The notes under the pieces were generated by a model. It was given only the letters and a program-made list of their open reading frames with translations, was not told where the DNA came from and ran no database searches. The translations under genes were made by a program, and so were the position numbers. A stretch of 60,737 nt of DNA from Prosthecobacter sp. (lineage in GTDB: Bacteria; Verrucomicrobiota; Verrucomicrobiia; Verrucomicrobiales; Verrucomicrobiaceae): positions 1 to 60,737 of the forward strand of contig NZ_JAQSEA010000073.1 of assembly GCF_029946185.1 (NCBI RefSeq), in the 5' to 3' direction. Below, piece by piece: positions 1 to 13,058 of this stretch (position 1 is its first letter; each line of letters opens with the position of its first letter).

Positions 1-729
1 GTGCATGCTGCGCGTCGGTCCGGTATGCGCGATGCGGCCATCCGGTGCCACATGCAGAAAGGGATGCCAGATGGACTCGTCACCGCCTTCATTCGTGGCC
101 AGCGCCCAGTTGATGTTCGTGAAGCGCGTCCACCCGCTTCTCTCCTGCCAGCGCTCCGCCGTTTTACTGCCACCGGATCCAGCGGCGGTGAAGACGCTGC
201 CATCTGGCAGCGCGACGCTCGTATTGTACCAGCGCGGGTCCTGCATGTCGGCGGCTGCGCTCCAGGTGTTGCTGCGCCAGTCAAACAGGCTGCAGTCGCG
301 GATGGTGTTGTTCCCTCCATTGACCAGCAGGCGGCCGTCCGGCAGCAGCGAAACACCGCCGCAGAACATGTCGTGACGTGGATTGTTGATCTCCACGAAT
401 TCTCCGGTGCGATAGTCCCACGTGGCCGCATACGTGAAATGACCCACGGGAAAACCGGTGCGCTGACTGGAGGCGAAAGTCAGCAGACGTCCGTCCGGCA
501 GTTGGGCGCAGGTCACCGGAATATGCGGCGTCCACGGTATCACTCCGCTCCACAGTCCGAGGGTTGAATATTGCGCCGGTGTCGGCGGCAGCGTTTGCAT
601 CTTCGGCGCTGGCTTGTCGGGCATGAGCCTTGCGGCTTCCGCGGCGAGCGCATCGCTTTGCGCATGCGTCACGTCATCTGCTTGAGAGAGTTGGCTGGCC
701 AGCAGCAATGTGAGCAGCAGTCGCTTCAT
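1..729 (-). CDS. Galactose oxidase/glyoxal oxidase-like copper radical oxidase, C-terminus cut by window edge
   Basis: This frame reads without a stop from an ATG at 729 to base 1, so only the first 243 residues are present. Residues 1-17 form a signal peptide, so the product is exported. The rest is kelch-like, with repeated LPDGR blade motifs. HDMFCGG places a Cys at 123 and DPRWYNTS a Tyr at 168; in galactose and glyoxal oxidases these positions form the Tyr-Cys cofactor that works with mononuclear copper to oxidise alcohols or aldehydes to give H2O2. The later copper ligands (Tyr, His, His) would lie outside the window and cannot be checked. The Trp that stacks on the cofactor in fungal galactose oxidase is not at its usual place, which is closer to glyoxal oxidases. 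The start overlaps the stop of the upstream MbnP-peroxidase gene as ATGA, which suggests translational coupling. Substrate unknown. Confidence 0.8.
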   Translation of the reverse strand, partial: MKRLLLTLLLASQLSQADDVTHAQSDALAAEAARLMPDKPAPKMQTLPPTPAQYSTLGLWSGVIPWTPHIPVTCAQLPDGRLLTFASSQRTGFPVGHFTYAATWDYRTGEFVEINNPRHDMFCGGVSLLPDGRLLVNGGNNTIRDCSLFDWRSNTWSAAADMQDPRWYNTSVALPDGSVFTAAGSGGSKTAERWQERSGWTRFTNINWALATNEGGDESIWHPFLHVAPDGRIAHTGPTRSMH

Positions 730-2501
730 CGTGCGGCGGTGGCTGCGGTGCCGGTGAAGCTTTCATCCGTCAGCGTCTTGAGAAAGGCCACCAGATCGGC
801 CTTCTCCTGCGTCGTGAGTTGAATGCCGCCCTCTGGATGCTTCGCCAGATTCGGGTCCAGCGTGGCGTTGCGCTGCACGCCGCTGCTGTAATGCTCCACC
901 ACCTCCTCCAGCGTGGTGAAGCGGCCATCATGCATGTAGGGCGCAGTGCGTGCGACATTGCGCAGACTCGGTGTTTTAAATTTCCCACGGTCAGCCGCGT
1001 TCTGCGTCACCGCCATGCGCCCAAGATCATCCTCCGCAAGCTCAAGGCCGTTGCTGGCAAACGACTGGCTCACAAACAGCGTGCCGCCATGGCAGTGAAA
1101 GCAGTCAGCGCCTCGCAGCCCACGTTTCGGATCAAACTCCGTCACGAAGAGCTGCAGTCCGCGCTTCTCGCTTTCTGTCAGTTCCGCCACTTTGCGTACC
1201 GCTCGGTCAAAGCGCGACTCTTGTGACACAAGCGTGAGCAAAAATTGCTCCAGTGCTTTCGCCACGCGCTCAGACGTGATCTGTGCGGAACCAAAGGCTT
1301 TCGCAAACGCCTGCGTGCACTCCGCATCCGCACTCAATTTGGCGATGACCTTCGGCAGCGTCTCATTCATCTCGTGAGCATCCTGGATCGGCATCAGCAC
1401 CTGCTCACGCAGCGTGGCCGCACGGCCATCCCAGAAGAAGGACTGCTGCCAGGCCAGATTGAACAACGGCATCGCATTCCGCCTGCCCTGCTGCTGCTGC
1501 GCGCCGGGGCTGAAACGCCGCGCATCGGCAAAGGCATGCGCTTGGTCATGGCAGGACGCGCAGGACTGCGTCTGATTGACCGACAGCCGCGTGTCATGAA
1601 ACAACTGTCGGCCCAGCGCCACGCCTTCCTGCGTCAGCGGATTGTCGGCAGGCAGTTGCACCTGTGGAAAACGCTGCGTCATCGCTGGCGTCAGGGCATG
1701 GGTGCCAGCGGGCAGGGGTGCAGGCTCCGTCGCGAACGCCGGTTTCTGATACACATCATAGTTCACACTGCGCACGCGGAATGCATGCTCGATGTTCGTC
1801 TTGAGCTTTGCCGCCAGCGCATCGCCCGCACGCGAATGCGTTGAAGTCCCATCCTTCGCGAAATCGATGTCCTTCAGTACCCGTTGCACATCCATCTCCA
1901 CCGCCAGCGTCATCGGCCTGCCACCGTGAAACTCCACCGGCAGTTCCACCGTCATCAACTGCGGCGCATTGGCGATGTGATACGAGAACCCATTCTCCTT
2001 GCCGTCCTTGGAGAATCGGCCTTCGAGCGCCATGAAAATATACCCGCCCTGCCAGCCCCAGTGCAGACCATTGACCTGCGGATTGAGCGCATGATTCGCT
2101 TCATAACCATTCGGGTCTGACTTGTTCGTCGTCTCATCCACACCAATGCGGAAGCGGATGCCCTGGTACACGCCCTCAGGCATGCCTGAGACCTTCGCGC
2201 TCACACGACCCTCCGCCGTGCTCAGGTACGCAAACCAGTCCTGCGACTCCAGCCAGGTGCCATCCTGTTTCTGCAAAGCCAGCCCGGAGAGCAGGCAATC
2301 AAGCCGCGTCACCTGCGCCGCCACCGCCAGTCCCAGTGGCTCATTCAGCCGCAGCACCTGACCATCCACCATCGGCACGATCTCCAAGTGCAAATCCTGC
2401 CCCGCCGCACCCAGCGTCAACAGCGAGACACCGCATAACACCATCGCCCATGCCCTGAAAGGCACTTCGGAAAGCGGGTTTCTCGTGAAAATGCGGCGCA
2501 T
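726..2501 (-). CDS. MbnP-like copper-binding domain fused to di-heme cytochrome c peroxidase (MbnH/MauG family)
   Basis: This is an exported protein of 591 residues from the chosen ATG at 2501; an in-frame ATG at 2531 is also possible, but an inverted repeat at 2507-2524 fits better as upstream DNA. After a signal peptide (about 20-35), residues 37-245 resemble the MbnP family, including the aromatic motif HWGWQGGYIF (Trp at about 148 and 150). Residues 280-585 are a di-heme peroxidase with CASCH at about 314-318, CFHCH at about 467-471 and a later PYMHDGRF. In the known MbnP/MbnH pair these are two proteins: MbnH oxidises a Trp of MbnP to kynurenine, which helps bind copper. Here both are on one chain, so modification could be intramolecular; that step is inference. 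The gene is followed, with an ATGA overlap, by the galactose-oxidase-like gene. The peroxidase half could instead be an ordinary CcpA-type peroxidase. Confidence 0.82.
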   Translation of the reverse strand: MRRIFTRNPLSEVPFRAWAMVLCGVSLLTLGAAGQDLHLEIVPMVDGQVLRLNEPLGLAVAAQVTRLDCLLSGLALQKQDGTWLESQDWFAYLSTAEGRVSAKVSGMPEGVYQGIRFRIGVDETTNKSDPNGYEANHALNPQVNGLHWGWQGGYIFMALEGRFSKDGKENGFSYHIANAPQLMTVELPVEFHGGRPMTLAVEMDVQRVLKDIDFAKDGTSTHSRAGDALAAKLKTNIEHAFRVRSVNYDVYQKPAFATEPAPLPAGTHALTPAMTQRFPQVQLPADNPLTQEGVALGRQLFHDTRLSVNQTQSCASCHDQAHAFADARRFSPGAQQQQGRRNAMPLFNLAWQQSFFWDGRAATLREQVLMPIQDAHEMNETLPKVIAKLSADAECTQAFAKAFGSAQITSERVAKALEQFLLTLVSQESRFDRAVRKVAELTESEKRGLQLFVTEFDPKRGLRGADCFHCHGGTLFVSQSFASNGLELAEDDLGRMAVTQNAADRGKFKTPSLRNVARTAPYMHDGRFTTLEEVVEHYSSGVQRNATLDPNLAKHPEGGIQLTTQEKADLVAFLKTLTDESFTGTAATAAR

Positions 2502-2506
2502 AAGTG

Positions 2507-2524
2507 ACGAACAATATCGTTCGT
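2507..2524. promoter_or_regulatory. Inverted repeat next to the start of the MbnP-peroxidase gene
   Basis: ACGAAC and GTTCGT are separated by six bases, directly upstream of the ATG at 2501. Position and symmetry are compatible with a dimeric regulator site, but the arms are only six bases and no regulator is encoded nearby. Confidence 0.3.
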
Positions 2525-2710
2525 GACACATGATCTATGGAAATTACAGGCTCGCAAGTCAGGGATTTGTAAGATGGTGACACAAAAATGGTAACATCCG
2601 CGATTGTGCGATTTTCTTCATCGGGCACAAGTGACCTCAGCTTCCGAGGTTGATCCGGCGAGATAGCCACCAAGCGTGGTTTGAGGCATGAAGCCCGACC
2701 GCCCAGTGAA

Positions 2711-3511
2711 TCACCCAATCCGACGGCGGCGGCGCAATGTCCATGCGATGCCGCAACTGGCGATGAGCAGCGCTCCGCCTGGCTCAGGAACCGGGGCAAA
2801 ACCCCCGATGACGAGACCGTCCTGCCAGTTGTTGGGGTCTTCTTCGTCCAACAGTGTGTTCACCGTGAAGTAGTTGTGCTGGGCGGTGTAGGTGGCAAAA
2901 AAGCCCGCCTGATCCTTCGCGGCCACATCGTTCAAAATGCTCTGGAAAATGGCGGAGCGGGCGTCACCCGTCGCTGTTCCCAGACTTGCAAAGTAGTCTT
3001 CGTAGCTGTTCAAGCCGGTGAAGTCGCTGAAGTCGCTCCTGGGCGGCGAGCCCTCAGTCTGGGCAAGGAAGTCCTGGATGGCGTACATCGCATTGTAGAA
3101 GTCGGCATCATTGACAAAGTTGTTGTAGTCGCCGCTCTGTTCAAGGAAGCGGCCCGAGGCACCTGCCAGGGTGTCCCAAGGCAGGAAGGTGTCGAGGACG
3201 TACTCCATCACGGCCACCTGCTTTGAAATGATGGGTGCGTAGAAAGCTGCATCCGACAGATAGATGGCGTTGCGCTCCGTGTTCTGCACGGTCCAGCCAT
3301 CATGAAACGAGTACGTTTCTGCAGTGATGGTCGCGTTGCTCAAAGCAGGCGTACCGGGCTCAATGCACAGCCACCAATAGGTCTGACCGTTGATGTCATA
3401 CTGGCCAATCGACTCCCCGTTGTTGTTCAGTCCGTTCACGCTGATAGTTGCAGCTGCAGCCGTGAGGGTGCAGGCCGCAAATACGAGGGGGAATAGCCTT
3501 CTGAATGTCAT
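2711..3511 (-). CDS. PEP-CTERM sorting-domain protein
   Basis: This exported protein of 266 residues has a signal peptide at about 1-21. Its C-terminus has the PEP-CTERM layout: VPEPGG, a short hydrophobic helix, then an arginine run (RRRRR). In this system an exosortase recognises the C-terminal signal and the protein goes to the envelope, often with exopolysaccharide. The central part is rich in Asp, Asn, Tyr and Phe and matches no fold I recognise. No exosortase is in the window. The gene is divergent from the parvulin gene across a 152-bp AT-rich gap that carries a perfect palindrome. Confidence 0.8.
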   Translation of the reverse strand: MTFRRLFPLVFAACTLTAAAATISVNGLNNNGESIGQYDINGQTYWWLCIEPGTPALSNATITAETYSFHDGWTVQNTERNAIYLSDAAFYAPIISKQVAVMEYVLDTFLPWDTLAGASGRFLEQSGDYNNFVNDADFYNAMYAIQDFLAQTEGSPPRSDFSDFTGLNSYEDYFASLGTATGDARSAIFQSILNDVAAKDQAGFFATYTAQHNYFTVNTLLDEEDPNNWQDGLVIGGFAPVPEPGGALLIASCGIAWTLRRRRRIG

Positions 3512-3539
3512 GAGTGTATGGAATTTATAATATTAGCTC

Positions 3540-3557
3540 AATAAATCTAGATTTATT
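3540..3557. promoter_or_regulatory. Perfect 18-bp AT-rich palindrome between divergent genes
   Basis: AATAAATCTAGATTTATT is a perfect inverted repeat, 29 bases upstream of the PEP-CTERM start and about 107 bases upstream of the parvulin start. The surrounding gap (3512-3663) is far more AT-rich than the genome around it and must hold the promoters for both genes. A repressor or activator site is a reasonable inference. Confidence 0.4.
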
Positions 3558-3663
3558 TTGTGAAAATTACGATAAATAGTATTTAACCGGAAATATCCTA
3601 CTTCTTTGATGGCCAAAGCAGTGCATTACTATCGGAAAGCCCTGTTCTAGGCTACCAATTCAG

Positions 3664-4683
3664 ATGCCACGTTCGTTCCAGAACCTTCTGTGGTGGCTTG
3701 CCGCCGCAACCATTGCTGCCTGTTACCTCTTGGCGGACATGCATGCCTTCAGGGGCCGGGAGGCGGCCGCAGCGGTTGTCCACGGCCAGCCAATCTCCCA
3801 GCAGGAACTGCAGGAATCAATGCGCGAGCACCTCTGGAAGCACGATCACTCTTGGGCCAGTCTCGACCCAGTCGCGCGCAAGAACACCCGCTGGCTGGCG
3901 CTGGAAAATCTTGTAAACGACCGCCTTGTGCGTGCCTGTCGCACAAAGAGCATGCTCAACACGGATACGTCCCGGCCCGCCGCGAAACGTGAGTCTGAGA
4001 GAATGCAGCGCCAGTTCGCCGATGCCGCAGAGTTTCCCGGCCGCCTGGCCGCCCAGCAGCTGACGCCCCAGTCGCTGGAAGCCCGTATCTACGCCGCGCA
4101 GCTCGATGAAGCATGGATCGCGGAGCAAATTCAGCCTCGTCTCAATGAGCTGACCCAGCAGGACGTGCAGCACTGGTACGATGAGTTCAAGGAAGCCCTG
4201 CGCATCCCACCCGCACACCATGCCGCGCACATCTTCCTCACCCGGCACGACAAAACGAAGCCCGACCGCGAGCCGGAAATACGTGAGATCCATCGTCAGC
4301 TGCTCGCTCACGAGAAGACATTCACTCAACTGGCCAAAAAACATTCCGATGACGCTCGAAGCAGTGTCCTGGGCGGCGACCTCGGCTGGTTCACGCAGGA
4401 GCGCATGCCGGCAGATTTCATCGCCGCCGTACAAAAGCTCAAAATCGGCCAGCCCAGCGCACCGGTGCAGACGCAGCTCGGCTGGCACCTCATCCGCGTA
4501 TTGGAGCGCCATGCCTCACGCCTCTCGACCTTTGAAGAGGCGAAAGTCGAAATCACCGCCCTCCTCATCAGCCAACGGCGCGAGCAGGCCGTGCAGAGTC
4601 TCCTCACCGAACTGCGCGAGAACTCTCAGCGCCAGGTGGTTTATCACACCGCGGTCATTGATCACGCTGAACCGGCTCCTTGA
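3664..4683 (+). CDS. PpiC/SurA-type peptidylprolyl isomerase
   Basis: This protein of 339 residues has one N-terminal membrane segment (about 7-25), a SurA_N-like helical part (about 35-170) and a parvulin domain (about 178-295). Typical parvulin pieces are visible: AHIFLTRHD, a FTQLAKKHSDD stretch, GGDLGWF and GWHLIRVLE. It should catalyse cis-trans isomerisation of prolyl bonds and act as a chaperone for exported or outer-membrane proteins while anchored in the inner membrane. Its last 29 bases overlap the end of the opposite-strand P-type ATPase gene. Confidence 0.85.
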   Translation: MPRSFQNLLWWLAAATIAACYLLADMHAFRGREAAAAVVHGQPISQQELQESMREHLWKHDHSWASLDPVARKNTRWLALENLVNDRLVRACRTKSMLNTDTSRPAAKRESERMQRQFADAAEFPGRLAAQQLTPQSLEARIYAAQLDEAWIAEQIQPRLNELTQQDVQHWYDEFKEALRIPPAHHAAHIFLTRHDKTKPDREPEIREIHRQLLAHEKTFTQLAKKHSDDARSSVLGGDLGWFTQERMPADFIAAVQKLKIGQPSAPVQTQLGWHLIRVLERHASRLSTFEEAKVEITALLISQRREQAVQSLLTELRENSQRQVVYHTAVIDHAEPAP

Positions 4684-7354
4684 TGCCGACCTCGGCGCTT
4701 CTGCGGCGTGCGCGCCACTTCCTGAGTTCTTCGGCCCACAGCACGCTGCTGCCGATGACACCGAGAAGAAAGACATCTGCCAGCGGGATCGGCACCGTGT
4801 GGAAAATGTGGTTCATCGATGCGTTGTAGATGACGAGGACGTGCAGGGCGTTGCCCAGAATGAGACCGCCGACGAGCCAGCGATTGCGCAGCACATCCAG
4901 GCTGAAGGAGGATTGGGTGGCGCTGCGGCAGTTAAGAACATTGAACCACTGGGTCACGGCGATGAGTGTGAAAGTCTCCGTCTGCACGAGTTCAAACGGA
5001 ACGCCGCTGGCCTCCCGCCACACGAAGAAACCGAAGATTGCCACCACCGAGGTGCTGACCATGAGCAGCAGCCGTTGGAGCATCGGTCTTGTGATGAGCT
5101 GCTCGCCCATTGGCGTGGGGCGGCGGCGCATTTCATCGCCCTCCGGGCCTTCCATGATCAGGTTCACCGTCACTGCGCCTTCGGTCACGATGTTGATCCA
5201 CAGGATCTGCACCGCCGCCAGTGGCAGCGGGTAGCCGCACAGCAACGCGAGCAGCAGCACAAGGACCTCATCAATGGACGTGGCAAACAGGAACAGCACA
5301 ACCTTTTTGAGATTCTGATACACGAGCCGGCCTTCCTCGATGGCCTTGACGATGGTGGCGAAGTTGTCATCCGTGATAACAATCTTCGCCGCGCCCTTGG
5401 CCACCTCCGTGCCCGTGATACCCATAGCCACGCCGACATCCGCCGCAGCGAGCGCCGGAGCGTCATTGACGCCGTCTCCCGTCATGGCGACGACCTGCTT
5501 CTGCGACTGGAAGGCCTTCACGATGCGCAGCTTCTGCTCCGGCTGCACCCGCGCAAAAACGGAGATGCGTTCCAAACTGGCGCGCAAATCAGCTTCAGAC
5601 ATTGCTTCGAGTTCCCCACTGTCCACGGCGATGTCGCCGGGCTTTGAAATGCCCAGTTCGGTCGCGATGGCAAGCCCTGTGGCCTTGTGATCCCCGGTGA
5701 CCATCACCGGCCGGATGCCCGCTGCCAGACACTCAGCGACAGCCTCCTTCACTTCTTCTCGCGGTGGATCTAACTGGCCCAGCAGACCGAGAAAGCGCAG
5801 CCTGCCGCGCCAGGGTTCAAAACCAGCTTTTTCATCGAGTGGGGAGTCACTAACCTCGGCCACGGCGAGCACCCGGAGAGCCTGCCCCGCGAGTTTTTCG
5901 GAAGTTTGCTGAACCTGTGCGAGATCCAGCGTCGCAGGATCGCAGAGATCAAGCAGCTTCTCAGGCGCGCCTTTGAACAGTACCCTGCGCTTCCCATCAC
6001 GATCATGCTGCGTGGCCATCATCTTCGCCGCTGAGTCGAAGGGGATCTCCGCACGGCGCGGCCACTCATCGCGCAGCGTTTCGAGTTCCACCCCGCCTTT
6101 GAGCGCGACTGTCAGCAAAGCCGCCTCAGTGGGATCACCCAGCGGCCGCCAGCGCGTTTCTTCCGCCTCGGGCGGCACAAGGTTCGCGTCGTTGCAAAGC
6201 GTGATCGCCTCCAGCAAAGACTTCAGCGCAGCATCATCCTTGCTGGCACCGAGCAGTTTGCCCTCAGGCGAATAGCCAGCTCCCGTTGCTTCGATTTGAA
6301 GACCATCCGGCAGAATAAGAGTGGTGACCGTCATCTCGTTCTTCGTGAGCGTGCCAGTCTTGTCGCTGCAAATGATGCTGGTGGACCCGAGCGTCTCCAC
6401 GGCTGCGAGACGGCGCACGATGGCCCCTCGGCGCGCCATCCGCTGCATGCCCACCGCCAGCGCGATGGTCATGGCCACTGGCAGGCCTTCGGGCACCATC
6501 GAAACCATCTGACTGATTGCCACCATGAAAATGGTCACAAAGGGAATGCCACGCAGCAGACCAAAGGCGAGGACCAAAACAAAGAGCACGATGGAAGCGC
6601 CCACCAGCCAGTTGCCAAACTGCTTGAGTCGAACTTCCAGCGGCGTTTTGGGTTCCTCCGCCGTTGCCGTCAGGCTGGCGATCTTTCCCACTTCCGTTTG
6701 CAGACCCGTGGCCACCACCACCGCACGCCCACGGCCCGCAGTGAAGTGCGTGCCGGAGTAAATCATGTTTCTGCGGTCACCCAGCCCTGCGTCCTCATCC
6801 ACCAACTCAGTGTGTTTCTGAACCGGGAGCGATTCTCCCGTGAGCGCAGCTTCAGTGGCTTCCAAAGCCGCTGCTTCGAGCAGTCGCGCATCAGCCCCCA
6901 CCTGATCTCCTGCTCCGAGCAGAAGGATGTCTCCCGGCACCAGTTCCCGTGCTTCGACGTTAGATTCCTTTCCATCCCGAACGACGCGCACTTTCAGCGC
7001 CGAGAGCTTGCGAAGCGTCGTCATCGAGTGCTCCGCCCGGCCTTCCTGCACAGCGCCGATGAGCGCATTGATCAACACGACCACCAGGATCACCACCGCG
7101 TCACTGCCATGCCCCATCGCAAAAGAGATTACCGCCGCGACGAACAGAATGTAGATCAGGGGGCTCGCGAACTGCAAGGCAAACACCCTCCACAGCGGCT
7201 TGTGCTTGTCCTCCGGAAGTTCGTTAAGGCCGTGCTGCTTCAGACGTTCGGTCGCCTCGCTGCCGCTCAGACCAACCTGCGCATCCGTCTCAAGCGCCTC
7301 CACAATTTTTTCAGATTCTGCCGCGTGCCAGTTGAGCGATGGTAAGACCTGCAT
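4655..7354 (-). CDS. P2-type cation-transporting ATPase (Ca2+-ATPase-like)
   Basis: This full-length P-type ATPase has 899 residues. It has the N-terminal cation ATPase domain (about 5-75), the TGES actuator loop, the phosphorylation motif DKTGTLTKNE, the hinge MTGDGVNDAP and about ten membrane helices. It couples ATP hydrolysis to ion movement across the inner membrane. The M4 motif VPEGLP and the M6 motif WINIVTEG resemble SERCA/PMR1 pumps. Of the calcium ligands, the M5 Glu (SIDEV) and M6 Asn are kept, the SERCA M5 Asn is Ile, and the M6 Asp is Glu. Calcium is therefore likely but not certain; another cation is possible. The gene stands alone and ends against the parvulin gene. Confidence 0.9.
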   Translation of the reverse strand: MQVLPSLNWHAAESEKIVEALETDAQVGLSGSEATERLKQHGLNELPEDKHKPLWRVFALQFASPLIYILFVAAVISFAMGHGSDAVVILVVVLINALIGAVQEGRAEHSMTTLRKLSALKVRVVRDGKESNVEARELVPGDILLLGAGDQVGADARLLEAAALEATEAALTGESLPVQKHTELVDEDAGLGDRRNMIYSGTHFTAGRGRAVVVATGLQTEVGKIASLTATAEEPKTPLEVRLKQFGNWLVGASIVLFVLVLAFGLLRGIPFVTIFMVAISQMVSMVPEGLPVAMTIALAVGMQRMARRGAIVRRLAAVETLGSTSIICSDKTGTLTKNEMTVTTLILPDGLQIEATGAGYSPEGKLLGASKDDAALKSLLEAITLCNDANLVPPEAEETRWRPLGDPTEAALLTVALKGGVELETLRDEWPRRAEIPFDSAAKMMATQHDRDGKRRVLFKGAPEKLLDLCDPATLDLAQVQQTSEKLAGQALRVLAVAEVSDSPLDEKAGFEPWRGRLRFLGLLGQLDPPREEVKEAVAECLAAGIRPVMVTGDHKATGLAIATELGISKPGDIAVDSGELEAMSEADLRASLERISVFARVQPEQKLRIVKAFQSQKQVVAMTGDGVNDAPALAAADVGVAMGITGTEVAKGAAKIVITDDNFATIVKAIEEGRLVYQNLKKVVLFLFATSIDEVLVLLLALLCGYPLPLAAVQILWINIVTEGAVTVNLIMEGPEGDEMRRRPTPMGEQLITRPMLQRLLLMVSTSVVAIFGFFVWREASGVPFELVQTETFTLIAVTQWFNVLNCRSATQSSFSLDVLRNRWLVGGLILGNALHVLVIYNASMNHIFHTVPIPLADVFLLGVIGSSVLWAEELRKWRARRRSAEVGIKEPVQRDQ

Positions 7355-7441
7355 GGCGAACTTTAAATTAGATCACGACAACCGCTATGGGGAATGCGCC
7401 CCATGGGTTGCGTAGATGCAAATGCGCGCTAAGGGCGTGGC

Positions 7442-8269
7442 ATGAAACAAAACGTTGGCATTCTCGGGCTCGGCATCATCGGCAGTCGTGTGGCGGACAA
7501 TCTGCGCAAAGCCGGGCATGAGGTTTTTGTGTGGAGCCGCAGCGCGCGCCCCGTGCCCAACTTCCTCGCCTCACCCCATGAAGTGGCCGAGGCGGCAGGC
7601 ATTATCCAAATCTTCGTGCGCGACGGCGCTGCGCTGCTCGACGCCATCGAAGACATGAAGCCCGCACTCAAAGCCGGGCATCTCGTCATGAATCACGCCA
7701 CGGTGAGCAAAAAAGCCACGCTGCAAGCCGCCCAGCTCGTCGAAGAAACCGGGGCCGCCTTCCTCGATGCTCCTTTCACCGGCAGCAAGATGGCTGCACA
7801 GAATGGCAAGCTGAGCTACTACATCGGCGGCAGCGAGCTCCTGATCGAGCGCGCCAAACCCGTGCTCGCCGCCAGTGCCGCCAAGATCCTCCCACTCGGT
7901 GCCATCGGCGATGCCATGGTGCTCAAGATCGTCACCAATCTCGTCTCCGCCGTGATCGTCGAAGCCGTCTCCGAAGCCGCAGACATCACCAAAGCCAACG
8001 GCATCCCCCTCGAACGTTTGCTAGAGGCACTGGAATCAAACGCCAACTTCTCCGCTCTCATCGGCATGAAACTTCCCGCCATCATCAAGAGCGACTTCGA
8101 GCCGCACTTTGCTCTGCGCAACATGCTCAAAGACGCCGACTTCGCCCGCGAACTCGCGGCAGAGGCAAGGCTCAAGACACCCGCCCTCGAATGCACCGCC
8201 GTCGCCATGCGCGCCAGCGTCGATGCCGGGAATGGTGATCTCGATTTCAGCGTCATCGGCCAGCGCTGA
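7442..8269 (+). CDS. Beta-hydroxyacid dehydrogenase family NAD(P)-dependent oxidoreductase
   Basis: The protein has 275 residues, close to the family norm of about 290. The N-terminus is a Rossmann dinucleotide fold with GLGIIGSRV (about 8-16). The middle has the substrate loop DAPFTGSKMAAQNG, and GDAMVLKIVTN carries the catalytic Lys and Asn of the GxxxKxxxN motif. The family includes 3-hydroxyisobutyrate dehydrogenase, tartronate semialdehyde reductase and succinic semialdehyde reductase; the substrate cannot be chosen from sequence. The gene is cytosolic and divergent from the ATPase gene, with an 87-bp gap for both promoters. Confidence 0.85.
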   Translation: MKQNVGILGLGIIGSRVADNLRKAGHEVFVWSRSARPVPNFLASPHEVAEAAGIIQIFVRDGAALLDAIEDMKPALKAGHLVMNHATVSKKATLQAAQLVEETGAAFLDAPFTGSKMAAQNGKLSYYIGGSELLIERAKPVLAASAAKILPLGAIGDAMVLKIVTNLVSAVIVEAVSEAADITKANGIPLERLLEALESNANFSALIGMKLPAIIKSDFEPHFALRNMLKDADFARELAAEARLKTPALECTAVAMRASVDAGNGDLDFSVIGQR

Positions 8270-8360
8270 AAAGTGACCGCGCTTGGACACAATCGTCCTC
8301 GTCCTCGATCAAACTGCTCCGCAATCACGCCTGCCACCGAGCCGTCTCTAATCTCTTCGC

Positions 8361-8386
8361 ATTGTAGTCCCGACTTCATCGGTCCC
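8361..8386. repeat. Interspersed palindromic repeat, TTGTAGT family, copy 1
   Basis: This short element (TTGTAGTCCCGACTTCATCG and following bases) lies between the dehydrogenase and ThuA genes. It shares the pattern TTGTAGT-N-CCG-N-CTT-N-A-N-CGG with the copy at 18274-18295. It is imperfectly palindromic and probably a REP-like element. Confidence 0.5.
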
Positions 8387-8403
8387 GAAGTGCCCCGCCC
8401 CCA

Positions 8404-9234
8404 ATGAAACGACACACCTTCATCCTCCTCTTTTTCGCCATGCTCACTCGCATGGCTCTGGCTCATGACACCACGGCTCCGGCTGCCGCTGATTGGGGCC
8501 GCATGAAGGTGCTCGTCTTTTCCGGTGCCGCCTATTACAGGCATCCCGACATCCCCGGTATCAACCGCTGGCTGGTCCTGCTCGGCCATGAAAACGGTTT
8601 CGATGTGGACATCACCGAAAGTCCGAAAGACCTCATGCCTCAGGTGCTCGCCAAATACGATGTGTTGCTGCTCAACAACGCCAATGAACTCGACAAGATC
8701 ATCCCCGAGGCGCAGCGGCAGTCGGTCGAAGCTTGGTTCGCCGGCGGAAAGAAGGGCGTTGTCGGCCTGCACGCAGCACTCGTGCATCAAACAAACTGGC
8801 CGTGGTTGAGCCAGCTTGGCGGCTGCGATTTCAACAGTGACTCCGATTTCTCCAAGGCGAAAGTGACCGTGGAGCCCGCCGCAAAGGATCATCCCGCCGT
8901 AAAGGGCCAGCCTGCGGAGTTTTTCATCGAGGCCGACTGGACCAATCACGACCGCGCCGTCACCGGCCAGCCTGGCTTTCAAGTCTTGCTGCGCGTGGAT
9001 GAGAGCACCTACACACCCGTGCGCCATTATTTCAAGACGCGCGGAGGCAAGCCGATGGGTGCAGATCATCCCATCGCCTGGACGCATGAGCCCGCGGCGG
9101 GCGGCCGCTTCTTCTACACCGAGTTCGGCCACGATCTCCGCTCACTCAGCACCCCCTTCATCCGCAACCATATACTGGAAGGCATCCGCTGGGCTGCCTC
9201 AGCGGGGAAAACCGAAAGCAAGACAGCGAAATAG
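8404..9234 (+). CDS. Secreted ThuA-domain protein
   Basis: The protein has 276 residues with a signal peptide at about 1-20. It is a ThuA domain of the trehalose-utilisation, glutamine-amidotransferase-like fold, with the typical GLHAALV segment, a pattern of spaced His residues, and a C-terminal ADHPIAWTHE...GRFFYTEFGH region. ThuA proteins are linked to sugar catabolism; in planctomycetes and verrucomicrobia many are exported and of unknown chemistry. The SGNH hydrolase gene starts nine bases after the stop, so the two are probably one operon acting on an extracytoplasmic carbohydrate or ester. Confidence 0.85.
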   Translation: MKRHTFILLFFAMLTRMALAHDTTAPAAADWGRMKVLVFSGAAYYRHPDIPGINRWLVLLGHENGFDVDITESPKDLMPQVLAKYDVLLLNNANELDKIIPEAQRQSVEAWFAGGKKGVVGLHAALVHQTNWPWLSQLGGCDFNSDSDFSKAKVTVEPAAKDHPAVKGQPAEFFIEADWTNHDRAVTGQPGFQVLLRVDESTYTPVRHYFKTRGGKPMGADHPIAWTHEPAAGGRFFYTEFGHDLRSLSTPFIRNHILEGIRWAASAGKTESKTAK

Positions 9235-9243
9235 TACACCACC

Positions 9244-10536
9244 ATGCTGCACCCACACACTCTCCTCTCCACGCTCCTGCTCGCATTCACGGGCGCTGTA
9301 GCCGCCGCCGCTGAACCCGCTCTCTGGGATCTGGCCAAGAACGACATCCCTGCGGCCCAACAGTCAGGTGCAGTAGAGAAATCCGACGGCGTGGTGAAGC
9401 TGCGCGATGGCGCATCCTTCGCCGTGCCTGCGGAGGCCTTTCCTGATCAGAAGAACTTCACCGTGCAGGTCACACTCTCGCTCGATGCATTGGTTCAGGA
9501 CGCCGTCTTCTCCGTCATGAACAAGCAGAGCGCCGACAAGGACGACGGCTTTGCCATGTTCTTCAACTACAAGGACAAGCCCTACTATGCGCGGCAGGTG
9601 AACTCCGTCGTGAACAAGATCCTCATGGTGGGCGGCGCGCTCAATGGCCGCAACGAGCCGGAGATCAACAAGCCCGTCACCTTCACCATGGCCGTGCGCA
9701 ACGGCCTGGCGACCTTCTACATCGATGACGCTCCCATCAAAAAATGCTTCATGGAACTCATCCCCAATGACGGACCCATGTGGATCGGACGCAACGACAA
9801 CGCGAAGTCAAAAACCATGCCCGTGACCGTACACTCCGCGAAGGTCTTCGGCTCCTCATACAGCTACGTCTCCAAGAAGGAGGCCACGGGCGAGTTCCCA
9901 CGCGGCGCGGTGGCCGGGAAAGGCTGGGCGCTCGACGTTCCAAAGATCGACCACCCCGAGTGGCCAAAGGTGCTCATTTACGGCGACTCCATCTCTGTCG
10001 GTTACAGCGGCTCCTTCATTGCCGAGATGCTCAAGCAGCACGTCTATGTCTTCCACTGCGTCCACTTCGTTGGCGGTGATGTCCCCGAACAGGCGCTGAC
10101 CGAAATGGCCGGTCGTTTCAAATTTGACGCCGTGGTCTTCAACAACGGCCTCCACTCCCTCGGCTGGACGCCGGACAAAGTCCCCGACTCACTCGTTCTG
10201 GAGCGCATGCAAAAACTCGCCCGCTGCTTCAAGACCGGCGCGCCGCAGGCCAAAATCTTCTACCTCATGACCACGCCGCACACCGCCGCGCGTCCCGCAC
10301 CCAACAAACCCGTCACCGCCTTCGGCGACAAAAACGCCGTGGTCCTCCGGCTCAATACCCTCTCCGCCCAGGTCATGAAGCAGGAAGGCATTGAAGTGAT
10401 CGATGCCTACGCTCTGTTTGCCGCCCACCTCGACCTCGCCGCCGGTGACAACTTCCACTGGCAGAAACAGGCCTCCGAACTCCTCAGCCAGGAGATCTCC
10501 CACCACGTCCTTCCTGTGGTTAAAAAAGAGAAGTGA
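9244..10536 (+). CDS. Secreted SGNH/GDSL-family esterase with N-terminal LamG-like domain
   Basis: The protein has 430 residues with a signal peptide (about 1-22). Residues 45-210 look like a concanavalin/LamG beta-sandwich (FTMAVRNG, WIGRNDN). Residues 235-425 are an SGNH hydrolase: GDSISVGYSG supplies the nucleophile Ser, FNNGLHSLG the Asn block, and DNFHW the Asp-His pair. Such enzymes de-esterify acetylated polysaccharides or similar compounds. It is co-directional with the ThuA gene nine bases upstream. The beta-sandwich may bind a carbohydrate. Confidence 0.85.
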   Translation: MLHPHTLLSTLLLAFTGAVAAAAEPALWDLAKNDIPAAQQSGAVEKSDGVVKLRDGASFAVPAEAFPDQKNFTVQVTLSLDALVQDAVFSVMNKQSADKDDGFAMFFNYKDKPYYARQVNSVVNKILMVGGALNGRNEPEINKPVTFTMAVRNGLATFYIDDAPIKKCFMELIPNDGPMWIGRNDNAKSKTMPVTVHSAKVFGSSYSYVSKKEATGEFPRGAVAGKGWALDVPKIDHPEWPKVLIYGDSISVGYSGSFIAEMLKQHVYVFHCVHFVGGDVPEQALTEMAGRFKFDAVVFNNGLHSLGWTPDKVPDSLVLERMQKLARCFKTGAPQAKIFYLMTTPHTAARPAPNKPVTAFGDKNAVVLRLNTLSAQVMKQEGIEVIDAYALFAAHLDLAAGDNFHWQKQASELLSQEISHHVLPVVKKEK

Positions 10537-10660
10537 TCAGGCATTGCGGGCAGGGCCTCATGAGCCTGCATGGCATGTCTATTCCAAAAACACACCGCGA
10601 TCGCACTTGCCGCAGTACTCACTTTTGGCGAGGGGTGCGCTACAACCCCTGACCTCCCTT

Positions 10661-11596
10661 ATGACTGAATCCATTGTGTATCTCCTCGCTGGCGTCGTGC
10701 TCGCCTGGTTTGGTGGTGAACTCTTTGTGAGAGGGGGCATCGGACTGGCCGCTTGGGCCCGCTGGCCCACCGCTGTCATCGGGGTCACCGTGGCCGCGTT
10801 TGGCACCTCGTCACCGGAACTGATGGTGGCGGTTCAGGCTGCGCTGGATGGCGTCCCGCAGATCTCACTTGGAGATGTGCTTGGCAGCAATGTCGTCAAC
10901 GTCTCCCTAGTGCTCGGTTTGGTACTGGCACTCTCCGGCATGAAGGCGGAGGACGGCGGTATGCGGCGGGACTGGTTCATCTCCCTGCTGGTTCCGGGCT
11001 TTGTCTATCTGCTCCTCATGGATGGCTGGTTCTCGCGGCAGGACGCCATGATCATGATTGTCTGCTTCGTGGCATGGCTGACGGTGGTGATCCGTCATGC
11101 CCGTGCCCATGCAGCGGCACAGGCAGTACCGGTGGAAAAAGTTCCTGTGCTCAAAATGCTCGGCTTCTGCCTCCTGGGCCTTGCCATGCTCATCGGCGCT
11201 GCGCAGTTCGTGGTGCATGGGGGCACAGGCGTGGCCGCCGCACTCGGCTGGAGCCCCTTCGTTGTGGGAGCCGTCGTTATCGCCGTGGCCACCAGCACGC
11301 CAGAGTTGGCCACCACCCTCATCGCCCGCATGCGCGGCCATCATGACGTGGGACTCGGCAACATCCTTGGCAGCAACATCTTCAATGTCCTGTTCGTGGC
11401 TGCCGTCGCAGCATTGATCCATCCGTATCCGGTGAACCTGCCCGAGATCCAGCCGACCCTGCTCTTCGGTGCCGTCACCACGCTGCTCATCATTCCCGGT
11501 CGCGGGGGGTATATCCACCGCTGGCGTGGCATCCTCCTTCTAGTCATTTATGCAGCCTATGTGGTGCTGACCTTGAACCAAAGCTCGGCCCACTAA
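10661..11596 (+). CDS. Sodium/calcium exchanger family protein (YrbG-like)
   Basis: This integral membrane protein has 311 residues and about ten helices in two homologous halves. Each half has the alpha-repeat signature: AFGTSSPELMVA with GDVLGSNVVNV in the first and AVATSTPELATT with GNILGSNIFNV in the second. These line the ion pathway of CaCA-family antiporters, so it should move Ca2+ against Na+ or H+ across the inner membrane. The ATG at 10661 was chosen because the first helix follows at once and the upstream codons are low complexity and overlap the SGNH gene. Confidence 0.92.
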   Translation: MTESIVYLLAGVVLAWFGGELFVRGGIGLAAWARWPTAVIGVTVAAFGTSSPELMVAVQAALDGVPQISLGDVLGSNVVNVSLVLGLVLALSGMKAEDGGMRRDWFISLLVPGFVYLLLMDGWFSRQDAMIMIVCFVAWLTVVIRHARAHAAAQAVPVEKVPVLKMLGFCLLGLAMLIGAAQFVVHGGTGVAAALGWSPFVVGAVVIAVATSTPELATTLIARMRGHHDVGLGNILGSNIFNVLFVAAVAALIHPYPVNLPEIQPTLLFGAVTTLLIIPGRGGYIHRWRGILLLVIYAAYVVLTLNQSSAH

Positions 11597-11660
11597 ATAA
11601 GTAACACATGTGTGGCGACAGCCCGCCCGTCCGTGCGTGTGCAAAAAAACACGACAAAAA

Positions 11661-13058
11661 TCACTTCGCCAGCCGCTCCAGCACATTCCGCGTGACCCTC
11701 ATCACCACCGCATCATTCCCCATCAGTCCATGCGCCCAGTCAGTCGTGCCAGCGGTGAAGACGGTCCCTCCCCGCGTATAGAGTCCTAGGCAAGCCGCGC
11801 CCGTGCGTCCGCTCTCCCACTTCTCATACCATTCCGCATCATCCGGGTGCCAGCGCACCGGGCATGTGGCCAGCACTTCAAAGCTCTTCGGCGTACCATC
11901 CTTGCACGTCGGGAAGGGCAGCCCGTCCATCCAGCTCAGTTCACACCCATCGCATTCATAGCCGACAATGGTATCCTTGCCGCCAAACTTGTCCCCTCGC
12001 TTCAAACCGGTGCCGGCATAGATCCAGTGGTCCGGCCGATGCACCTCATACTCCGCCGGCTCCGTCATGAACTGCCCATGGCTTTTGCGATAGCCACCCC
12101 ACAGAAACCCCACCCCCGTCAGTTCGTTCTCAGGACGTTTGAGTAGATGATGACTCCACAACGTGCTCAGCGTTTTGAACTCCCGTGACTGATACACCGG
12201 ATCAAGATGGTAGTTCTGCTTGCAGCACGTAAACGCCCGCCCGCCATCCTCCGCACGCACCTGCCAGCAGCAAGTGTTGCCGCTGAAAAAAGCCACGTTT
12301 CCACCCTTGCCGATCCAGTCTTCCAAGTGGTCACGCATCGGCGTGCTCCAGTACTCGTCATGCCCCACACTCAGCACCAACTTGTAACTCGTCAGCAACT
12401 CCGGCCGAAATTCCAGATCATCATTCGCGGCAAATTCCAGCGCATAGCCATTCTTCTCCGCCCACTGCACAAAGGGCAGTTCCCACCGCCCAAACTGCGA
12501 AGGCCCCGGCCGCTCAAAGCTCACGCGATGCCCCTGATTGTTCGACAGACTGTTGTAGGCATACACCGAGAAGCCACCCCAGTTGTTGTACGCATTGTAC
12601 GTGTTCGTGCAAAGCTGCAGCAGAATCTTCGAGGTCGTGCCCGGCTTTGCCTGCCGCACGATGAACCACGCGCTGCTCTCCGCCGTGCGCTTCCCGCGCT
12701 GCATCCATTTGCCCCCTGCATCCGCAGCACGAAAGACCACCTCATAGTAGCCCGACTTCCACGCCGCCGTGCTCGGCACCCGCACACTCTCCGGCCAGCG
12801 GCAGCCATTCGCCGAAGCATCCTCCGGCACAGGATACGCCACACCCGGCACATCAGCTTTCTTCCACACCACCTCCCGCACCGCACCCAGACGCGCCACC
12901 TCGATCTCATACTTCGCCGCCGTCGTGCTCACATGAATCGGAATCTCCTCCCCCTGCGCGATGCTCCGCTGTCCCGCATAGCCCTCGATAAAGAGGGGCA
13001 GGGGATCTGCCGCTTGCAGGGATGAAACAACGAGAAGGAGGGCAATGATGCGGTGCAT
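11661..13058 (-). CDS. Secreted N,N-dimethylformamidase large-subunit-like protein
   Basis: From the ATG at 13058 the product has 465 residues and a clear signal peptide (about 1-17); an in-frame ATG at 13094 would only add residues before it. The body matches the DMFase beta-subunit C-terminal family: an N-terminal beta-sandwich (about 20-140), then YNNWGG, a GHDEYWS motif and FFSGNTCCWQ. The characterised enzyme hydrolyses dimethylformamide, but most members are uncharacterised, so the substrate is unknown. The gene follows the ECF sigma factor gene on the same strand with a gap of about 40 bases, so the two could be co-transcribed. Confidence 0.75.
   Translation of the reverse strand: MHRIIALLLVVSSLQAADPLPLFIEGYAGQRSIAQGEEIPIHVSTTAAKYEIEVARLGAVREVVWKKADVPGVAYPVPEDASANGCRWPESVRVPSTAAWKSGYYEVVFRAADAGGKWMQRGKRTAESSAWFIVRQAKPGTTSKILLQLCTNTYNAYNNWGGFSVYAYNSLSNNQGHRVSFERPGPSQFGRWELPFVQWAEKNGYALEFAANDDLEFRPELLTSYKLVLSVGHDEYWSTPMRDHLEDWIGKGGNVAFFSGNTCCWQVRAEDGGRAFTCCKQNYHLDPVYQSREFKTLSTLWSHHLLKRPENELTGVGFLWGGYRKSHGQFMTEPAEYEVHRPDHWIYAGTGLKRGDKFGGKDTIVGYECDGCELSWMDGLPFPTCKDGTPKSFEVLATCPVRWHPDDAEWYEKWESGRTGAACLGLYTRGGTVFTAGTTDWAHGLMGNDAVVMRVTRNVLERLAK

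Follow-up and report, generated by a model that had tools for sequence, protein, structure and literature searches.

Why would a bacterium join the copper-binding protein MbnP and its di-heme partner MbnH in one chain, and what has this chain to do with the copper oxidase encoded next to it? The question is raised by a 60,737-nucleotide stretch of Prosthecobacter sp. DNA (NZ_JAQSEA010000073.1; hereafter the window), which is the entire contig C73 of a 6.19 Mb draft genome (G000). MbnH reportedly oxidises the first Trp of a WxW motif in MbnP to kynurenine, a step said to be required for Cu(I) binding, and we know of no client protein established for the pair. We found that a single open reading frame (ORF) of 601 amino acids in the window (726-2531, minus strand, as for all window genes given below) encodes both partners, with an MbnP domain at residues 45-231 and a di-heme domain of the MbnH/MauG type at residues 294-596, which confirms the single chain that an earlier reading of the DNA (the original prediction) had described. 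The next gene encodes a very large oxidase of the galactose oxidase/GlxA type. We propose, with a probability of about 45%, that the fusion is exported and modifies itself as a copper protein, and that it supplies or matures this oxidase and may use its hydrogen peroxide (H2O2).

Domains and conserved residues of the fusion

The fusion begins with a hydrophobic stretch (residues 1-44; 2400-2531) that by eye looks like an export signal, which suggests that the protein is exported. The MbnP domain follows (1839-2399); PF20243 matched the fusion with an E-value of 1.4e-33 and 116.9 bits, well past the gathering score of 27, and the domain was also identified by TIGR04052 and by comparison of a structure model with 7L6G, the MbnP of Methylosinus trichosporium. 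All 24 fusions scanned matched PF20243 at E <= 1e-5 and TIGR04052 at E <= 0.01 (45.5 bits in the row of the window). The di-heme half (744-1652) was matched by PF03150 (E 2.3e-56) and by the MbnH/MauG-type family TIGR04039 (E 1e-75, below that family's cut-off), and its nearest solved structure, by sequence as well as by structure, was MbnH (6E1C; chain 6E1C_A, E 2e-50). The assignments of the two halves made in the original prediction thus held up in the profile searches.

Both folds are also recovered in an AlphaFold2 model of residues 40-601, predicted from 24 fusions with no templates (mean predicted local distance difference test score, pLDDT, 83.1; predicted template modelling score 0.83). 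VIA-align placed MbnP (7L6G) on the first half of the model with a Z of 17.7 (root-mean-square deviation 3.6, 211 residues aligned) and MbnH (6E1C) on the second half with a Z of 31.3 over 306 residues. Many peroxidase matches begin at model residues 117-121, corresponding to fusion residues 156-160, a weak hint that the WxW loop may pack on the di-heme core.

The motif HWGWQGGYIF spans residues 157-166 of the fusion, and its HWGW part (157-160; 2052-2063) aligned with the WNW of 7L6G, with weak sequence E-values (0.05 and 0.035). Residue conservation was counted in 42 fusions (L015, L019, L028, L029 and the duplicates L101, identical to L014, and L103, identical to L031, were omitted here and from the tree below, which also leaves out L034). 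W158, the first WxW Trp and expected kynurenine site, was present in all 42, so the Trp of the original prediction proved to be invariant; H157 and W160 were each kept in 41, and the first WxW Trp was found in 48 of 52 separate MbnPs. Two further His residues are candidate copper ligands, namely H185 (1977-1979; 42/42 fusions, 51/52 separate MbnPs) and H232 (1836-1838; 42/42 and 34/52, respectively).

The di-heme half is equally constant. Both heme-binding CxxCH motifs (residues 324-328, 1548-1562; residues 477-481, 1089-1103) occur in 42/42 fusions, as does W367 (1431-1433), the expected inter-heme Trp, which we take to be the equivalent of MauG W93 and which is also present in 53/53 separate MbnH proteins. 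Y548 (888-890), placed from the alignments of the PDB matches and presumably the counterpart of the MauG ligand Y294, is invariant in the 42 fusions and aligned with the Met of ordinary peroxidases. The distal Glu (E387) is unchanged in all 42, and the distal Pro is kept in 38, including that of the window, with Ala in the other four; both distal positions were assigned by MauG numbering.

These residues bear on another view, namely that the di-heme domain is a plain peroxidase which guards the cell from H2O2 made by the oxidase, while MbnP is a docking or electron-transfer domain that carries no kynurenine. An oxidase of this type should indeed produce H2O2, and the di-heme domain also resembles cytochrome c peroxidases. 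However, Tyr rather than Met occupies the second-heme ligand position, MbnH is the best match, the WxW Trp and two MbnP His residues are invariant beyond what docking would need, and the same fusion occurs without the oxidase. We therefore regard a plain peroxidase as improbable. Given the conservation of the machinery residues, self-modification, either within a chain or between chains, is the reaction that we consider most likely for the fusion.

The known pair of M. trichosporium (7L6G, 6E1C) shares with the window protein both domains, their folds, the WxW Trp and the di-heme residues. The difference is that its MbnP and MbnH are encoded by two neighbouring genes, as the pair is described in the available part of PMC3621798, while the window has one chain. 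The window fusion also lacks the four-Cys motif that appears in the name of 7L6G, as residues 45-231 read from the sequence contain a single Cys. Fusion fixes the stoichiometry of MbnP and MbnH, and it makes self-modification testable in one purified protein.

A chemistry like the one proposed here has been described for CorA/CorB and MopE/SACCP of methanotrophs: CorA and MopE bind Cu(I) near a kynurenine derived from Trp, and the di-heme peroxidases encoded alongside were suggested to be its makers (available text of PMC3912023). These systems consist of two genes, and that same text mentions no oxidase partner. CorA and MopE are not markedly similar to MbnP in sequence, according to the available part of PMC3621798.

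A giant copper radical oxidase

Only the first 243 residues of the oxidase are encoded in the window (1-729), where the gene is cut by the contig end. The remainder lies on contig C263 of the same genome (8266-14889): window positions 1-28 are identical to the end of C263, and across this exact 28-base overlap the frame continues to give a rejoined protein of 243 + 2,207 - 9 = 2,441 amino acids. The join is backed by synteny with a relative (locus L007), in which 1-6826 corresponds to the window and 7116-11797 to C263.

The original prediction had called this gene product a galactose/glyoxal-oxidase-like enzyme that needs copper and a Cys-Tyr cofactor. The likeness was borne out for what proved to be a truncated N-terminus. 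The window piece matched PF07250 just below the cut-off of 37.5 (35.6 bits, E 7.4e-9) and matched the GlxA model with an E-value of 5.6e-14 and 51.3 bits; the GlxA equivalog cut-off of 800 bits was missed by this piece, by the C263 part (88.4 bits) and by the copy at L096 (141.5 bits). In the alignment with galactose oxidase, C123 (361-363) and Y168 (226-228) fall at the two residues of the expected Cys-Tyr cofactor. The copper-site positions (Cys, Tyr, axial Tyr, His and His, with roles assigned as in galactose oxidase) are kept in 15/15 oxidases, including the rejoined one of the window. The stacking Trp, which we take to be Trp290 of galactose oxidase, is not seen; the loop at this presumed position is devoid of Trp in all 15 oxidases, if the Trp of the subsequent ERW is not counted. 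We regard the protein as a very large, probably secreted copper radical oxidase of the galactose oxidase/GlxA type, with domains of kinds that bind surfaces or sugars.

Pfam searches of both pieces found Kelch blades, a galactose-oxidase-like E-set domain, Ig, PKD and PA14 domains and Big_12 repeats, together with cytochrome c matches around two CxxCH motifs, and NCBIfam added YVTN propeller repeats. Legume-lectin, DUF1349 or CBM domains were found in other copies. The oxidase domain of the window is 43-57% identical to those of the others. The CCP_MauG family scored just short of its cut-off in the window oxidase (23.6 versus 25.6 bits) and above it in several other copies. The di-heme module of the giant is divergent. 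We dropped it as a candidate MauG-like module, since the Tyr position is His by eye in the four copies that could be read. An AlphaFold2 model of the propeller and di-heme module, predicted from three sequences, had a mean pLDDT of 57.7, with values of about 30 across much of the di-heme part. The order of a propeller followed by a di-heme module recalls the beta-gamma subunits of hydrazine synthase, whereas here the module is attached to a copper oxidase; the likeness is one of architecture only, as three oxidases scored between 59.6 and 88.7 bits against NF052342 (best in L096, E 2.7e-25, 88.7 bits), far below its cut-off of 1250.

The window's genome holds a second giant oxidase of 2,998 amino acids on contig C136 (L134, 5770-14766, minus strand). 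It stands alone on a contig in which no MbnP was matched, and it is 88% identical to an oxidase in the genome of L007 (see also G387:C100, L135).

Linkage of the fusion and the oxidase

The stop codon of the fusion ends at 726 and the oxidase starts at 729, so that the two genes overlap by the ATGA (726-729) noted in the original prediction. The same 4-base overlap was found in seven other loci; among 12 distinct linked loci, eight (the window included) have it, one has a 1-base overlap, two have a 19-base gap and one could not be read. To evaluate the association, we used an order sample of 189 genomes, of which 87 contain MbnP (115 copies), and a phylum sample of 387 genomes, of which 22 contain it. 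The oxidase query matched 47 genomes of the order sample; MbnP is present in 45 of them and lies directly upstream in 33. One of these 45, G438, has just a broken MbnP match of 81 residues. The two oxidase genomes without MbnP are G474 and G426, and the match in G426 is a 539-aa frame with 32% identity. In the phylum sample, eight of nine oxidase genomes have MbnP, seven pairs besides that of the window are adjacent, and the ninth genome (G285) contributes a piece at a contig end. The same gene arrangement was seen in tens of genomes, which excludes chance. With so few exceptions (45/47), the oxidase is a concrete client candidate for a kynurenine copper site.

The tree of 94 di-heme domains, which was computed by a quick method without bootstrap, groups the 42 fusions with a single unfused pair, from Sumerlaeota, in a starred set (95). 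Within it, the 12 oxidase-linked fusions belong to a set of 14 (support 85), whose other two members are L007 and the Sumerlaeota pair. The oxidase link is therefore conserved in one subclade of fusions.

Could the genes be neighbours merely as an operon convenience, or through shared ancestry in a few Verrucomicrobiota families, with no functional coupling? The samples consist of related species, and the Fisher tests for co-occurrence (p 9e-17 in the order sample and 2.4e-10 in the phylum sample) ignore this kinship, with genomes shared between the two samples. However, adjacent pairs occur across the family codes f1, f2, f5, f81 and f82, and the gene order and short overlap have been kept even though the oxidase domain of the window is only 43-57% identical to the others, which makes a mere gene link very improbable in our view.

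Proposed function of the oxidase-linked fusions

In the scheme that we propose, the di-heme domain would use H2O2 to oxidise W158, in the MbnP domain of the same or of a sister chain, to kynurenine, and this would create a high-affinity Cu(I) site. In the oxidase-linked subclade, the fusion would be made together with the giant oxidase, would hold copper for it and would aid its maturation, that is, copper loading and formation of the Cys-Tyr cross-link. H2O2 released by the oxidase could in turn feed the di-heme domain, both to complete the kynurenine site and to remove peroxide.

A comparable arrangement is known from Streptomyces, where, according to the available part of PMC4736821, GlxA maturation depends on a copper chaperone, Sco, and on a heme peroxidase, DtpA, which consumes the H2O2 that GlxA produces. 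There, likewise, a copper radical oxidase is accompanied by a copper carrier and an H2O2-using heme peroxidase (PMC4736821, same part). The Streptomyces carrier (Sco) and peroxidase (a DyP) are separate proteins of other families, whereas here they would be a single MbnP-MbnH chain, which by analogy could unite the roles of Sco and DtpA. If true, the Streptomyces concept of a copper radical oxidase that depends on a copper carrier plus a peroxidase would also hold in another phylum, where unrelated parts form a single chain.

One could go further and regard the locus as a dedicated maturation unit, in which the fusion hands copper to the oxidase, H2O2 from the oxidase drives kynurenine formation, the Kyn-Cu and Cys-Tyr-Cu cofactors depend on each other, and the giant's own di-heme module is a further outlet for electrons or peroxide. 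We consider such strict interdependence unlikely.

Points against the coupling and fusions without the oxidase

Several results weigh against a self-modifying copper protein that serves the oxidase. Some concern the protein itself. The fusion scored 45.3 bits (E 6.6e-12) against the TIGR04052 equivalog cut-off of 140, and residues 294-596 scored 254.9 bits against the TIGR04039 cut-off of 362.85; as both cut-offs were missed, the two halves are divergent relatives of the MbnP and MbnH families. The residue two before the WxW Trp is Leu in 38/42 fusions and Met in 34/52 separate MbnPs, and the window fusion has Leu and His before this Trp where 7L6G has Met and Ala. If that Met is a copper ligand, the copper site of the fusions may differ from that of separate MbnPs. 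Others come from the known systems: when a CorA-like protein was deprived of its di-heme partner, the result was read as a sign that it still binds copper (available text of PMC3912023), and in the available part of PMC4736821, no strong physical interaction was seen between DtpA and GlxA, and DtpA did not raise GlxA activity beyond the level reached with horseradish peroxidase.

The remaining points come from the distribution of the two genes. In the order sample, 14 of the 47 oxidase genomes have no adjacent MbnP, the 33 oxidase-adjacent places compare with 115 MbnP copies, so that most fusions lie elsewhere, and an oxidase of this kind is missing altogether from 42 of the 87 genomes with MbnP. 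Even the close relative L007 (86-87% identical) has kept the fusion and lost the neighbouring oxidase. Its empty site (L007 6826-7116, compared with window position 702 and C263 position 8219) lacks the entire oxidase gene between flanks that are 81-85% identical, and the L007 genome carries two such oxidases elsewhere. The co-occurrence suggested by the original prediction is thus conserved in one subclade and is not strict, and its functional interpretation, a copper-binding protein that modifies itself and supports the oxidase, is partly supported.

The main rival draws on this same distribution. The fusion may make its own kynurenine copper site for general copper homeostasis, such as storage, uptake or detoxification, with the oxidase as one exchangeable neighbour that needs or follows copper; some explanation of this kind must apply to the fusions without the oxidase. 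In addition to the 42 genomes and to L007, it is favoured by a YHYH-domain gene that lies within the retrieved DNA at 20 of 48 fused loci (two duplicates among the 48) and at 0 of 13 oxidase loci, and by genes that look like two-component regulators by eye beside some fusions. On the other hand, the oxidase is seldom found without MbnP, and the oxidase-linked fusions cluster in the tree, so that the link looks specific in that clade. As an account of the oxidase-linked loci, we find general homeostasis somewhat unlikely, though less so than the other alternatives. Where the oxidase is absent, as in those 42 genomes, the fusion probably serves another purpose, often beside the YHYH-domain gene.

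The YHYH search used the PF14240 region of L028 as query and found the gene at L014, L016, L018-L021, L025, L027, L028, L032, L039, L104, L105, L107-L109 and L111-L114, as well as at the separate pair L036. The YHYH-domain protein is an alternative partner candidate for the fusion. The 1,646-aa ORF of L028, which appears to combine MbnP, MauG, YHYH and sulfatase domains, was rejected as a four-domain chain since its frame crosses a run of N. Genes resembling response regulators and histidine kinases were seen by eye near the fusions of L013, L014, L020, L024 and L104, which hints at control by copper or some other signal.

Spread of the single-chain form

A scan of genome contigs gave at least 589 loci, of which the best 80 were kept. 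Judged by profile, these 80 comprise 27 fused loci, 50 with MbnP and MbnH encoded by separate genes and three with MbnH only. The fused loci among the best 80 are labelled Verrucomicrobiota, except L018, which is labelled only 'bacterium' and has a genome of the window's class as its neighbour in the tree, while the separate-gene loci among the 80 are mostly from Bacteroidota. In the order sample, 108 of the 115 MbnP copies lie in open frames of at least 534 aa, the length of a fusion, a count made by frame size. By these frame lengths, the fusion is the usual form of MbnP in Verrucomicrobiota. The literature that we searched, mainly open-licence papers, did not report a single-chain fusion or such oxidases in Verrucomicrobiota; the parts and their chemistry are known, and the single-chain form, its spread in Verrucomicrobiota and its giant oxidase partner appear to be new.

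Other loci, mostly from Bacteroidota (L045-L051, L056-L058, L060, L061, L064, L065 and others), combine one MbnP gene with two di-heme genes. In 22 of 27 secondary di-heme proteins, the inter-heme Trp position is occupied by Arg.

Upstream of the fusion, the window encodes a 266-aa protein (2711-3511) that looks exported and ends by eye in a PEP-CTERM-like tail. The stretch with this gene is conserved in the relative L007.

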